A DNA stretch of 64,000 nucleotides from the NCBI RefSeq assembly GCF_029936995.1, contig NZ_JAPYRE010000004.1:248001-312000 (forward strand), written 5' to 3'. Under the pieces are notes generated by a model, which saw only the letters and a program-made list of their open reading frames with translations, ran no database searches and had not been told where the DNA came from. Shown here in pieces: positions 39,004 to 42,793 of this stretch. Origin of the DNA: Henriciella sp. (lineage in GTDB: Bacteria; Pseudomonadota; Alphaproteobacteria; Caulobacterales; Hyphomonadaceae). The position numbers and the translations under genes are program-made. Positions within the stretch are counted from its first letter, which is position 1; every line of letters starts with the position of its first letter.

Positions 39004-39032
39004 TTGACTTCGCCGCCCCCGCCCCATATTCA
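39004..39032 (+). promoter_or_regulatory. Promoter of the histidine operon leader
   Basis: TTGACT (39004-39009) and TATTCA (39027-39032) with an exact 17-bp spacer. Transcription would start about 7 nt later, at 39039-39041, that is at or next to the leader ATG at 39041. Confidence 0.65.
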
Positions 39033-39040
39033 GCCTCGCA

Positions 39041-39079
39041 ATGAATACGAGAACGCATCACCACCATCACCACGCGTGA
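39041..39079 (+). CDS. hisL: Histidine operon leader peptide (attenuator)
   Basis: A 12-codon frame, MNTRTHHHHHHA followed by TGA, with six consecutive His codons (39056-39073). It lies 180 bp upstream of hisS, the first gene of hisS-hisZ-hisG, and starts at about the predicted transcription start, explaining why there is no ribosome site (leaderless translation). The layout follows the his leader of enteric bacteria (seven His codons) although the sequence is unrelated. When charged tRNA-His is short, ribosomes would stall on the His codons and alter the downstream hairpins. The run is too short for routine ORF calling. Confidence 0.75.
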   Translation: MNTRTHHHHHHA

Positions 39080-39157
39080 CGCGCCGATCGAGGCGCGAAC
39101 CGGTCCGGCTGCGCCTCTCTCTCAAGTGTTCATTCTTCTCATTGAACCGCCAGAGGC
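39080..39157 (+). promoter_or_regulatory. His attenuator hairpins (mutually exclusive)
   Basis: Right after the leader stop, CGCGCC (39080-39085) pairs with GGCGCG (39092-39097). The same middle segment, extended to GAGGCGCG (39090-39097), also pairs with TGCGCCTC (39110-39117), giving an 8-bp stem including one G-U, followed by the U-rich UCUCUC...UGUUCAUUCUUCUC stretch. The two stems share bases and cannot coexist, as expected for antiterminator versus terminator. A further stem, GCCTCT (39113-39118) with AGAGGC (39152-39157), competes with the second. The U-run is impure, so terminator strength is uncertain. Confidence 0.55.
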
Positions 39158-39261
39158 AGACGCGCCGCCACCCGGTCTCGCGCCCTATCGACGCGTCCGC
39201 CTTCACACGCTGAACAGCTTCGTCTAAGGCGAAGCGCGACTGACCAGACAGGACGGCCTCA

Positions 39262-40755
39262 ATGAGCAAGAAGAAGAAACAGGACCCGGACGCCCCGAAG
39301 ACAGGGAAGGACCTCGCCCGCAGCCCCCGAGGCTTTCCGGACCGGCGCGAGGGCCTCATTCATGCCCAGGCCGAGATGATCGACCGGGTGACATCTGTCT
39401 ATCGCCGCTGGGGCTTCGAGGCGCTGGACACTGGCGCATTCGAATATGCTGACGCGCTCGGCAAGTTCCTGCCCGATGATGACCGCCCGAATGCCGGGGT
39501 CTTCTCGCTTCAGGATGATGACGAGCAGTGGATTTCGCTGCGCTATGATCTCACCGCCCCGCTTGCGCGCTTTGCTGCAGAGAACTGGCAGACCCTGCCG
39601 AAGCCCTTCCGCCGCTATGCGTCCGGCCCGGTCTGGCGCAACGAGAAGCCGGGGCCCGGGCGGTTCCGTGAATTCCTGCAATGCGATGCCGACACGGTCG
39701 GCGCGCCGGGGCCCCATGCCGATGCGGAGATGATCGCGATGGCCGCTGAAGCGATGCGCGCGGCCGGCGCGGGCGACAGCGAATTCGTCGTGCGGGTGAA
39801 CACGCGCCGCCTTCTGAATGCGGTCCTCTCCGGCGTCGGCGCATCGGATGCGGGCACCCACCTCACCATATTGCGCGCGCTCGACAAGATGGACCGGCTG
39901 GGCGAAAGCGGCGTTGCCGACCTCCTGGGCAAGGGCCGCATGGACGATAGCGGGGACTTCACCAAGGGGGCCGGACTGGACCCTGAGCAAGTCAAACGTG
40001 TCCTCGCCTTCGCGCAGGCTGGCCGCGAGACCCGTGGCGAGACGCTGGAAGCGCTGGGGCAGGCCGTCGGCACCGGCGAGGAAGCGCAGGCCGGGCTCGA
40101 TGAGCTCACCGCCATCGCCAGGGCGCTTGAAGCCTTTGGCTGCCCGGAAGGTGATGTGGCCTTCGACCCGTCGGTGGTGCGCGGCCTTGAATACTATACC
40201 GGCCCGGTCTTCGAGGCCGAACTGCTGCGTGAAACGCTCGACGAGGATGGCAACACCGTCCGCATCGGCTCTGTCGGCGGCGGCGGGCGCTATGACGATC
40301 TCGTCGCGCGCTTCACCGGTGAGAAAGTGCCCGCGACCGGCTTTTCCGTCGGTATCTCGCGCCTCGCCACCGCGTTTGCCATTTCCGGCAATATAGACGC
40401 GCTCAACGGCCCGGTTGTCGTGCTCAACCTCAACCGCGAAGACCCGTCAGACGCGCTCAGGGTGGCGACCGAACTCAGAAATGCAGGCATCCGCGCGGAA
40501 GCCTATATGGGTGGCTCCGGCATGCGCCCGCAGATGAAATATGCAGACCGCCGCGGCGCGCCCGTCGCCGTCATGGTCGGCGAGGACGAGATCGCCAAGG
40601 GCGTCGTCACCATCAAGGACCTGAAGGAAGGTGCGAAACAGGCCGCGGCGATCAAGTCGAATGCGGAATACCGCGAGGCGCGCCCCGGCCAGTTCGAAGC
40701 CCCGCGTAGTGAAATGATCGCCCGCGTGCGTGAGATTGTCGAGGCCGCCGAATGA
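39262..40755 (+). CDS. hisS: Histidine--tRNA ligase
   Basis: A 497-residue class II aminoacyl-tRNA synthetase that charges tRNA-His. Motif 2 and the His-binding regions are visible: LRYDLTAPLARF, VWRNEKPGPGRFREF and RGLEYYTGPVFEAEL, and the C-terminal anticodon domain starts near NGPVVVLNL. It is longer than the E. coli enzyme (about 424), with a basic N-terminal extension (MSKKKKQDPDAP), a pattern seen in alphaproteobacterial HisRS. It overlaps hisZ by 4 bp, which places tRNA charging under the same leader as histidine synthesis. Confidence 0.95.
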   Translation: MSKKKKQDPDAPKTGKDLARSPRGFPDRREGLIHAQAEMIDRVTSVYRRWGFEALDTGAFEYADALGKFLPDDDRPNAGVFSLQDDDEQWISLRYDLTAPLARFAAENWQTLPKPFRRYASGPVWRNEKPGPGRFREFLQCDADTVGAPGPHADAEMIAMAAEAMRAAGAGDSEFVVRVNTRRLLNAVLSGVGASDAGTHLTILRALDKMDRLGESGVADLLGKGRMDDSGDFTKGAGLDPEQVKRVLAFAQAGRETRGETLEALGQAVGTGEEAQAGLDELTAIARALEAFGCPEGDVAFDPSVVRGLEYYTGPVFEAELLRETLDEDGNTVRIGSVGGGGRYDDLVARFTGEKVPATGFSVGISRLATAFAISGNIDALNGPVVVLNLNREDPSDALRVATELRNAGIRAEAYMGGSGMRPQMKYADRRGAPVAVMVGEDEIAKGVVTIKDLKEGAKQAAAIKSNAEYREARPGQFEAPRSEMIARVREIVEAAE

Positions 40756-41852
40756 CCAGCCCGGAAGACATTTTCGCCCGCCTCGGCGGCGAGCTCACCG
40801 ATCCCCCCATCGTCATGCCGGCGAGCCAGCCGCTGGAGCTCTCCGGCGAGGCGGTGCGTGCGCGCCTCTGCGTCTTTGTCGGCGCGAATGGTGAGGAATG
40901 CGCCCTGCGCCCTGATCTCACCCTGCCGCTTGCCATCGCGCAGGCCGAAGCCGGTGTCAGTGGCGAGACCGTCAAACGCTATGCTGCACGCGCCTTCCGC
41001 TTACCCATCGTGCCCGACGACAGGGTGGAGTTCACACAGGTCGGCTTCGAGCGCTATGGTGCGGCGTCCACGCCTGAGACCGATGCCGATGTCTTCGCAC
41101 TCGTCTGCGAAGCCGCCCGCGAGTCCGGTGTGAAGGAAAGCGAGACCCGTATGGGCGACCTGGCCGTCTTCCCGGCTTTTGTCGACGCACTTTCGCTGGC
41201 GCCCGGTCTTGCCGATGCGCTGAAGCGTGCCTTCCGCCAGGTTGGCGGGGTTTCGGCGCTGCTCGAGGCAAAGCCGGAACAGCCCGCCCACGGTCTCGCT
41301 GCCCGTCTCAAGGGCGCAAGCCCGGCCGAAGCCAAGGCCATCGTGGCCGACATTTTCGCCCTGTCAGGCATCCAGCCGCAGGGCACCCGCACGCTGGACG
41401 AGATTGTCGAGGGTCTGCTGGCCCAGGCTGCTGACGCCGAACATGGCGGTGCGCCGGAACTGGCGCGCGAGACGCTCGAGGCTGTCATGGCCGTCGATTG
41501 CCCGCCCGAAGAAGCTGCCGACAGCCTCTCGACCATTGCTCGCAAGGCCGGCGTCAGCGGCGTTGATCCGGTTCTGGAAGGTCTGGAAAAGCGTGTTTCG
41601 GCGATGCGCGCGCAGGCGGGCGACTTCATGACGAGTGCCCGTTTCGGCACCCCCTTCGGACGCCGCTTCAATTATTATGACGGCTTCCTGTTCGAGCTGT
41701 TCCGCCCCGGTGAAGCCTCGGGCCGCAAGCCGTTCGGGGCGGGGGGGCGCTATGACACGCTCCTGTCAAAACTCTCGAATGGCACCGTCGATGCCACCGC
41801 GATTGGTGGGGTCGTGCGCCCCGACCGCCTGAAAGAGGGAGGCGCATCATGA
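40752..41852 (+). CDS. hisZ: ATP phosphoribosyltransferase regulatory subunit
   Basis: A 366-residue HisRS-like protein without catalytic anticodon domain, the activating subunit that forms a complex with short HisG. The HisRS-like core is seen in LRPDLTLPLAIAQAE and the conserved FQ VGFERYGA region, and RFGTPFGRRFNYYDGFLFE at the C-terminus. It sits between hisS and hisG with 4-bp overlaps on both sides, so the three proteins are made together. Confidence 0.92.
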   Translation: MTSPEDIFARLGGELTDPPIVMPASQPLELSGEAVRARLCVFVGANGEECALRPDLTLPLAIAQAEAGVSGETVKRYAARAFRLPIVPDDRVEFTQVGFERYGAASTPETDADVFALVCEAARESGVKESETRMGDLAVFPAFVDALSLAPGLADALKRAFRQVGGVSALLEAKPEQPAHGLAARLKGASPAEAKAIVADIFALSGIQPQGTRTLDEIVEGLLAQAADAEHGGAPELARETLEAVMAVDCPPEEAADSLSTIARKAGVSGVDPVLEGLEKRVSAMRAQAGDFMTSARFGTPFGRRFNYYDGFLFELFRPGEASGRKPFGAGGRYDTLLSKLSNGTVDATAIGGVVRPDRLKEGGAS

Positions 41853-42793
41853 GCCGCCTGACGATTGCGATTCCCTCCAAGGGGCGCCTTAAAGAGAATG
41901 CCGAGAACTGGTTCGCCAAGGCCGGGTTCAGCCTGAAGCAGACCGGTGGTGCCCGTGGCTACACGGCAGAGCTGAAGGGCCTTGCCGAAGCTGATGTGCT
42001 GCTTCTGTCTGCCCGTGAAATTGCGCAGGGACTGATCGACGGGGCCTTCCATATCGGCGTGACCGGCGAGGACCTGCTGAATGACCTCTCACCGGACCTG
42101 TCCCGCGATGCGAGCGTCATACGCCGGCTTGATTTCGGCGGCGCGGATGTCGTCGTAGCCGTCCCGTCAGCCTGGCTGGACGTGAACACGATGCGTGAGC
42201 TGGAAGCCGCTGGCGCGCTGTTCCGCCAGAAGCATGGACGCCGTATGCGGGTCGCGACCAAGTATATGCGGCTGACGCGCAACTTCTTCGCGCAGAAATC
42301 TGTTGGCGAATATCGGCTGATCGAGAGCGCCGGGGCGACAGAGGCCGCGCCCAGTTCTGGGCAGGCTGAAGTCATCGTCGATATCACCTCGACCGGCGCG
42401 ACGCTCAAGGCCAATGGTCTGAAAGTGCTCGATGATGGTGTGATGCTGAAGTCCAAGGCGGCGCTCACCGGATCGCTGGGGGCGCATTGGGACGAGGAAG
42501 CGCTCGGCGCGCTGGAAAAACTGCTTGCTTCGGTCGAGGCGGTGGAATCGGCGGATGCGAAGAAACTGCTACAGGCCGCGCATCCGATCCCCGATTCTCT
42601 CCTCACAGGCGAAAACCTGGAGCCCGTGTCGGAAAATGCGGCTCTGTCGACCGCTCAGGCGGCGAAAGAAAATGCCCGGCGAATCGCGGAATCGGGGGCT
42701 GGGCCTGTTTCCATCCTCGGTGCAGAGTTCATTTTTGACCGGAATACGCCGTCATTCGAGAACTTTGTTACCAATCTGAAACAGCGCGCTTGA
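41849..42793 (+). CDS. hisG: ATP phosphoribosyltransferase catalytic subunit
   Basis: The enzyme of the first step of histidine synthesis, condensing ATP with PRPP. The N-terminus (AIPSKGRLKENAENWF) and the PRPP-binding EVIVDITSTGATLKANGLKVL are typical. At 314 residues it is longer than the 210-230 residue short form usually found with HisZ, with an extra C-terminal segment after LEKLLASVEA; similar lengths occur in other alphaproteobacteria. The window does not contain the other his genes. Confidence 0.92.
   Translation: MSRLTIAIPSKGRLKENAENWFAKAGFSLKQTGGARGYTAELKGLAEADVLLLSAREIAQGLIDGAFHIGVTGEDLLNDLSPDLSRDASVIRRLDFGGADVVVAVPSAWLDVNTMRELEAAGALFRQKHGRRMRVATKYMRLTRNFFAQKSVGEYRLIESAGATEAAPSSGQAEVIVDITSTGATLKANGLKVLDDGVMLKSKAALTGSLGAHWDEEALGALEKLLASVEAVESADAKKLLQAAHPIPDSLLTGENLEPVSENAALSTAQAAKENARRIAESGAGPVSILGAEFIFDRNTPSFENFVTNLKQRA

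Follow-up and report, generated by a model that had tools for sequence, protein, structure and literature searches.

The 64,000-nucleotide stretch of Henriciella sp. DNA analyzed here (the window) contains the neighboring genes hisS, hisZ and hisG and, very probably, a ribosome-mediated transcription attenuator upstream of them, which would sense charged tRNA-His and control the part of hisS-hisZ-hisG expression that derives from the promoter P1. Three traits of this class of regulator are found together: an open reading frame (ORF) of cognate codons, hairpins that, by computation, exclude one another according to the position of the ribosome, and target genes that belong to the matching pathway. 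An earlier reading of the window (the original prediction) had proposed such an attenuator; a conserved run of histidine (His) codons, a promoter upstream of it and conserved hairpins all support that proposal. The coordinates of the features are collected in Table 1.

The leader ORF, its predicted promoter and their conservation

The leader ORF opens with ATG AAT ACG AGA ACG, continues with the His codons CAT CAC CAC CAT CAC CAC and closes with GCG TGA. Both the 12-codon ORF with six adjacent CAY codons and its spacing of some 180 bp from hisS had been predicted, and both are present, the distance from the leader stop to the hisS ATG being 182 nt. The run was also said to be followed directly by TGA, which is inexact: an Ala codon, GCG, stands between the two. 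Six consecutive CAY codons occur at one place in the 3.40-Mb genome, counted on both strands, and the reversed control pattern occurs nowhere; four consecutive CAY codons occur at 29 places, three of which overlap at the leader site. No second His-run leader was accepted in the same genome, either with the covariance model described below or among the 20 of these 29 places that were inspected.

The nearest named relatives of the HisS protein of the window are those of Henriciella (Hyphomonadaceae). A protein search with this HisS gave at least 80 hisS loci, and all locus counts are among the matches listed. hisZ follows hisS in 80 of 80 loci and hisG is present in 78; the contigs of the other two, L003 and L035, end before hisG. 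An upstream ORF with at least four His in seven codons was found at 58 of the 80 loci in a simple scan. Five further leaders have fewer His and the same flanking motif, which brings the total to 63 of the 78 loci that have upstream DNA (L060 and L069 have none that is usable). Of these leaders, 38 are of a Hyphomonadaceae type and 25 of a Caulobacteraceae type. The two groups were set by leader sequence; some record labels are broad or clearly wrong, and L041, L042 and L064 are labelled Acidobacteria, yet are placed among Hyphomonas in a HisS tree. The His run had been expected to recur in relatives and does so; because the leader is conserved among them, a chance origin of the run appears untenable.

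A covariance model, R1, was built from alignment A2, which holds 38 of the 39 aligned Hyphomonadaceae-type leaders (L032 is omitted), all located through hisS. It matches 67 of 105 genomes of the family, with one strong site each, and two of the 67 (G079 and G103) have weak matches away from hisS. In the genus of the window 28 of 29 genomes match; in the R1-negative 29th (G023), no hisS was found either. Six of the 14 lower-ranked R1 rows were inspected: those of G039, G056 and G049 and the first of G074 resemble coding sequence, and those of G079 and G103 are not at hisS. In a class-wide search of 142 genomes, the upstream DNA of 29 further hisS loci was read, and one of them, L177, has a convincing His-codon upstream ORF (uORF). 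In this 1.2-Mb genome the His-rich uORF, MKNIVLNHTHHHTHAKHGLGN, and then a tRNA-His gene stand before hisS (1290-1355 and 1398-1474). A 59-codon ORF with four His at L166, from the same search, was taken as chance, as were ORFs with three scattered His at L136, L143, L146 and L149, four of the loci from mostly R1-negative genomes considered below.

The ORF is 12 codons long at 35 of 39 loci. Among 38 distinct 12-codon leaders, His occupies codons 6, 7, 8, 9, 10 and 11 in 34, 37, 35, 38, 31 and 30 cases, and its codons are exchanged synonymously (110 CAC, 95 CAT). This synonymous codon use suggests that the ORF is translated and that the peptide itself is the conserved entity. It could be that the peptide is a functional His-rich micropeptide, for example a metal-binding one, or that the run is due to chance, and six His do resemble a metal-binding tag. 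Against this, the length, position and flanking hairpins of the ORF are fixed relative to hisS, leaders with HHLH or HPHH persist, and there is one strong R1 site per genome; such an origin is extremely improbable.

P1 is predicted to start transcription at about 39039-39041, that is, at the leader ATG. Its -35 TTGAC and -10 TA are invariant at 39 of 39 aligned loci, its spacer fits 17 nt at all of them, and the distance from the -10 element to the leader ATG is 6-10 nt throughout (7-8 nt in 31). P1 is absent from the output of a simple sigma-70 scan. A Shine-Dalgarno (SD)-like 4-mer precedes the leader at 0 of 39 Hyphomonadaceae-type and 1 of 25 Caulobacteraceae-type loci, and the leader ORF is predicted to be leaderless. 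The conserved promoter upstream of the leader argues against a transcript that begins downstream of 39080, the start at the ATG itself being a prediction.

A second, promoter-like element, P2, keeps a position close to hisS that is conserved in register in the alignment. A strict pattern for it, TT[CAG][CA][CA]N-N16-18-TA[TAG][GA]CG, is found at 34 of 39 loci and missed in L002, L008, L039, L040 and the window, which fails by its last bases. With P1 attenuated, P2 would sustain hisS expression. The coupling of hisS to charged tRNA-His that was originally predicted is supported in itself, and would be partial if P2 supplies basal hisS, because an element placed after the switch should do so.

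Table 1. Features of the hisS leader region and the genes downstream of it (positions in the window)
Feature	Position	Strand	Remarks
Promoter P1	39004-39032	+	-35 TTGACT 39004-39009, 17-nt spacer, -10 TATTCA 39027-39032
Leader peptide ORF, MNTRTHHHHHHA	39041-39079	+	12 codons; His codons 39056-39073; predicted leaderless
Hairpin 1:2 (H1)	39080-39097	+	Segment 1 39080-39085, segment 2 39090-39097; proposed antiterminator
Hairpin 2:3 (H2)	39090-39117	+	Exclusive with 1:2; proposed terminator
Hairpin 3:4	39113-39157	+	39113-39118 with 39152-39157, inner GUUCA/UGAAC; exclusive with 2:3; proposed starved-state lock
Downstream arm	39171-39198	+	Complementary to 39077-39104; long-range helix in full-length fold
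Promoter-like P2	39202-39230	+	TTCACA 39202-39207, 17 nt, TAAGGC 39225-39230; proposed hisS bypass
hisS	39262-40755	+	TIGR00442, 367 bits, cut-off 287
hisZ	40752-41852	+	PRK12295/TIGR00443 models, all below their cut-offs; synteny
hisG	41849-42793	+	TIGR00070, above cut-off

Exclusive hairpins and the proposed switch

H1 has a perfect stem of 6 bp (-11.8 kcal/mol, z -3.1), and H2 a stem of 8 bp with a further one of 3 bp inside it (-15.7 kcal/mol, z -2.6). The two share bases, as had been predicted, overlapping at 39090-39097. In alignment A2, H1 pairs in 100% of 222 cells (17-66% in slid controls) and H2 in 97.3% of 296 cells (35-74% in slid controls). Computation thus finds both hairpins conserved as pairs, in agreement with the claim that both form. 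Their arms are nearly invariant, with one double change each, and proof by covariation appears thin in the Hyphomonadaceae-type family. Stretches that include both hairpins (39080-39117, 39074-39130 and 39041-39130) are no stabler than shuffles, with z from -0.3 to -0.8.

Hairpin 3:4 (-12.0 kcal/mol) can be followed by eye in the Henriciella and Hyphomonas alignments (one of them, A4, has 25 rows), in which GCCTC pairs with GAGGC and an inner GTTC with GAAC, with mismatches in some Hyphomonas; both sides are changed in L042, also by eye. Compensatory support for 3:4 comes from the Caulobacteraceae-type leaders only. Over five helices, G-U cells exceed A-C cells by 93 to 16, with 36 of the 93 coming from one nearly invariant H2 pair, and this excess suggests that the structured RNA is the hisS-sense strand.

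The switch may work as follows. Transcription would start at the leader ATG or no more than about 3 nt from it, and ribosomes would load on the leaderless message. When His-tRNA is ample, the ribosome would reach the stop codon and cover segment 1, so that 2:3 could form and P1 transcripts would end before hisS. An operon for a synthetase and for biosynthesis is expected to be turned up on starvation, and termination is therefore assigned to 2:3, which would most likely serve as an imperfect intrinsic terminator. In a shortage of His-tRNA, the ribosome would stall on the His codons and leave segment 1 free, and 1:2 would form first and take segment 2 from 2:3. In this starved state, 3:4 could follow 1:2 and hold segment 3, and the polymerase would read into hisS. 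P2 would meanwhile keep up a basal supply of the essential synthetase.

The dependence on ribosome position was modelled with the ribosome edge at A-site +14. A ribosome on codons 6-9 gives 1:2 a probability of 0.96-0.99 while the RNA ends at 39100-39110, and 2:3 is preferred only once segment 3 has emerged. For a ribosome on codons 10-13 the probability of 1:2 is at most 0.65 at 39100 and at most 0.01 at 39110 (0.65 and then 0.01 on codon 10, 0 on codons 11-13). For edges assumed anywhere between A-site +9 and +16, H1 is entirely free when the ribosome stalls on codons 6-8, and segment 1 is masked when it stands at the stop codon. Because a ribosome on codons 1-5 behaves in the model like one on codons 6-9, an untranslated leader should also read through, unlike that of trp.

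The complementarity between the downstream arm and the H1 region listed in Table 1 gives the full-length leader a better fold than its shuffles have (z -4.45). This long-range complementarity dominates the full-length fold and is present in two genera. In a shuffle test covering 26 of the 39 loci, between 0 and 2 of 200 shuffles do as well as the duplex at 15 of 16 loci outside L009-L018 and at 1 of 10 within that group. The idea that the H1 loop and the long-range arm co-vary was considered and rejected: own pairs fit no better than swapped pairs, and the long-range helix is therefore not shown as a selected pair.

Caulobacteraceae-type leaders, termination and rival readings

The 25 Caulobacteraceae-type leaders are unrelated in sequence to those of the Hyphomonadaceae type and have a longer ORF, and they keep the 1:2, 2:3 and 3:4 topology. 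Their structures were drawn from one of the 25 rows, which favors them, and pairing in the full alignment (A3, all 25) reaches 82.7% of cells for 1:2, 92.9% for 2:3 and 95.6% for 3:4. The best single piece of evidence is the 3:4 column pair 122:151, which is U-A in 15 leaders, C-G in 8 and C-A in 2. Segment 1 lies inside the ORF in these leaders, and the His codons are upstream of it.

Four segments in the trp topology, with segment 1 within the ORF of the Caulobacteraceae-type leaders, could suggest textbook trp logic, with 3:4 as terminator, 2:3 as antiterminator and 1:2 as protector. However, a stalled ribosome leaves segment 1 free in the window, and the His codons of the Caulobacteraceae-type leaders are likewise upstream of segment 1, so that such a device would terminate on starvation; 3:4 is also without a U-tract. 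The trp arrangement is thus considered very unlikely here.

A number of results weigh against the attenuator with 2:3 as its terminator. The leader is absent from 15 of the 78 hisS loci, scattered Hyphomonas included, and no convincing leader was found at 19 hisS loci from 22 genomes picked mostly as R1-negative. As a control for the predicted leaderless start, SD-like 4-mers were counted at hisS starts placed by homology, and with 17 of 39 and 2 of 25 the contrast is weak. The covariation score of H2 is matched by slid controls, and that of 1:2 in the Caulobacteraceae-type leaders, their weakest helix, is exceeded by one slid version. If the ribosome edge lies at +14 to +16, a ribosome at the stop codon is in contact with segment 2 as well, and 2:3 falls to 0.8. 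Equilibrium folding favors 2:3 over 1:2, and the switch would therefore have to be kinetic. No canonical U-tract follows 2:3 or 3:4, a simple terminator scan reports none on the hisS strand, with H2 unlisted, and the Caulobacteraceae-type leaders have no T enrichment (1.6 of 8). The ilvB leader of the same genome, in contrast to the his leader, ends in GGCCCTTTTTTCTTTT and has a 6-T tract.

In the genome of the window, a Val/Leu/Ile-rich leader ORF with a TTG start, then a hairpin and TTTTTTCTTTT lie ahead of the ilvB match at L187, from about 193 to 85 nt before it. This ilvB leader looks like a canonical branched-chain attenuator.

The main rival keeps the same sensor and replaces the termination step: Rho would terminate transcription, or assist in doing so, on a C/U-rich, G-poor stretch after H2, which 3:4 would fold away in starved cells. 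The lack of a canonical U-tract is in keeping with this, as is the composition at +50-60 after the stop, where Henriciella has G 0.01 and C 0.40 and the L009-L018 clade has G 0.07, and 3:4 is the best-supported helix of the Caulobacteraceae-type leaders. However, T is enriched just after H2 in the family of the window (0.41, 0.35 and 0.53 at +40-50 in three groups), which favors an intrinsic terminator there, and a rut site is not provable from sequence. In the first 8 nt after H2 there are 2.90 T against a background of 1.5, and TTTT occurs at 11 of 39 loci. Termination through Rho is a realistic alternative, but an unlikely one, and the attenuator with 2:3 as an imperfect intrinsic terminator remains the preferred reading.

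The Rfam family RF01528 (CC3513), listed as a small RNA (sRNA), covers the leader region in 7 of the 18 Caulobacteraceae-type loci scanned, on the strand opposite hisS (L071 4277-4446, L063 4212-4378 and five others). It does not match the window. The name CC3513 is said to originate with Landt 2008. The CC3513 family may be the hisS attenuator. It may be that the region mainly yields a small or antisense RNA that acts elsewhere, as the RF01528 listing would imply; a terminated leader would itself be a small RNA, and the trp attenuator RNA of Sinorhizobium acts in trans (PMC7298713). The conserved structure lies on the hisS-sense strand, however, the window is among the sequences without an RF01528 match, and a role in trans would leave the tie of the His codons to hisS unexplained. 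An RNA of this kind is very unlikely to be the main product, and a cis-acting attenuator is preferred. A Caulobacter sRNA, CrfA (RF01527), is found downstream of hisG on the same strand at L071 (8248-8383) and at 16 of 17 other Caulobacteraceae-type loci scanned. It is missing only at L073, whose sequence ends soon after hisG; the window has no CrfA match.

Glutamine codons, related systems and significance

The content of the operon varies between leader and hisS. Among 63 leader regions compared for this purpose, namely those that differ in 200 nt, seven have a tRNA-Gln(UUG) gene at that place (L009, L012, L014, L015, L031, L124 and L220). All seven have glutamine (Gln) codons in the leader, compared with 2 of the 56 regions without the gene (L111 and L018; Fisher p 6.5e-8, the loci being related). 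L018 has a tRNA remnant by eye that ARAGORN does not call. In the HisS tree, which holds 55 named loci and the window (L011 was dropped by the program, and L220 and L124 lie outside it), the tRNA-Gln gene is carried by L009, by the trio L012/L014/L015 and by L031, which has a long branch. Because one gain and about three losses would explain this distribution, the Gln association is suggestive only. In L016 and L013, tRNA-like remnants can be seen by eye between leader and hisS where sisters carry tRNA-Gln, and the leaders are without Gln codons. One genome (G012, one contig, 39 tRNA loci) has a second, divergent tRNA-Gln beside the canonical one; that of the window (41 tRNA loci) has one tRNA-Gln, of the canonical kind.

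A tentative and still doubtful extension is that the attenuator is a Caulobacterales-wide device with control codons that match what the operon contains. With a second tRNA-Gln(UUG) gene between switch and hisS, it would then be a dual sensor of His and Gln, and loss of the tRNA would be followed by loss of the Gln codons.

Precedents exist for each of three elements taken separately: His-leader attenuation, leaders of synthetase genes, and leader ORFs that are leaderless. The enteric his attenuator, which has a run of His codons and alternative hairpins as the window does, controls the his biosynthesis operon and is not known to control hisS. The leader of the window had been described as unlike enteric his leaders in sequence, and it has no match to the Rfam His_leader model, either at the gathering score or up to E 10; nor does the window match a T-box riboswitch model. 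Naville and Gautheret 2010 (PMC2965389) describe histidine leader peptides of bacilli that precede hisS* and hisZ. Like the leader of the window, these pair a His-run uORF with an attenuator; their target genes are a paralogue of hisS and hisZ. They belong to another phylum, however, and Rho-independent terminators were the search criterion of that study, whose account of these leaders mentions no leaderless start and sees no similarity between Firmicutes and Proteobacteria leaders (PMC2965389).

Closer in taxonomy is uORFC-8-2, the cysS attenuator of Rhodobacterales, an alphaproteobacterial uORF of cognate codons before an aminoacyl-tRNA synthetase gene (PMC8632094). By its published description, on which the comparison is based, it differs in having the Cys codons within the first stem and a run of U at the end of all cases. 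The trpL attenuator of Sinorhizobium meliloti is also alphaproteobacterial, and its transcript is described as leaderless, beginning at the leader AUG, but its codons are Trp codons and its target is trpE(G) (PMC7298713, PMC10117765). In Caulobacter, which is of the same order as the window, a leader coding sequence before the synthetase gene trpS and an ilv attenuator are described in a paper whose main text does not contain hisS (PMC4117421). A His leader before hisS in Alphaproteobacteria appears in none of the open-literature matches listed, a set that does not cover subscription papers; Lopatovskaya 2010 and Vitreschak 2004 may describe such a leader.

The proposed attenuator gives the Caulobacterales hisS operon, that of Caulobacter itself (L071) included, a testable starvation switch. 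It also offers an explanation for the region listed by Rfam as the sRNA CC3513, and it adds a leader ORF that is predicted to be leaderless and lacks a canonical terminator. The association between Gln codons and tRNA-Gln would allow a direct test of how leader codons are linked to operon content. If the dual sensor is real, a tRNA gene would be regulated by a ribosome-mediated attenuator that responds to the charging of the tRNA species which the gene encodes.
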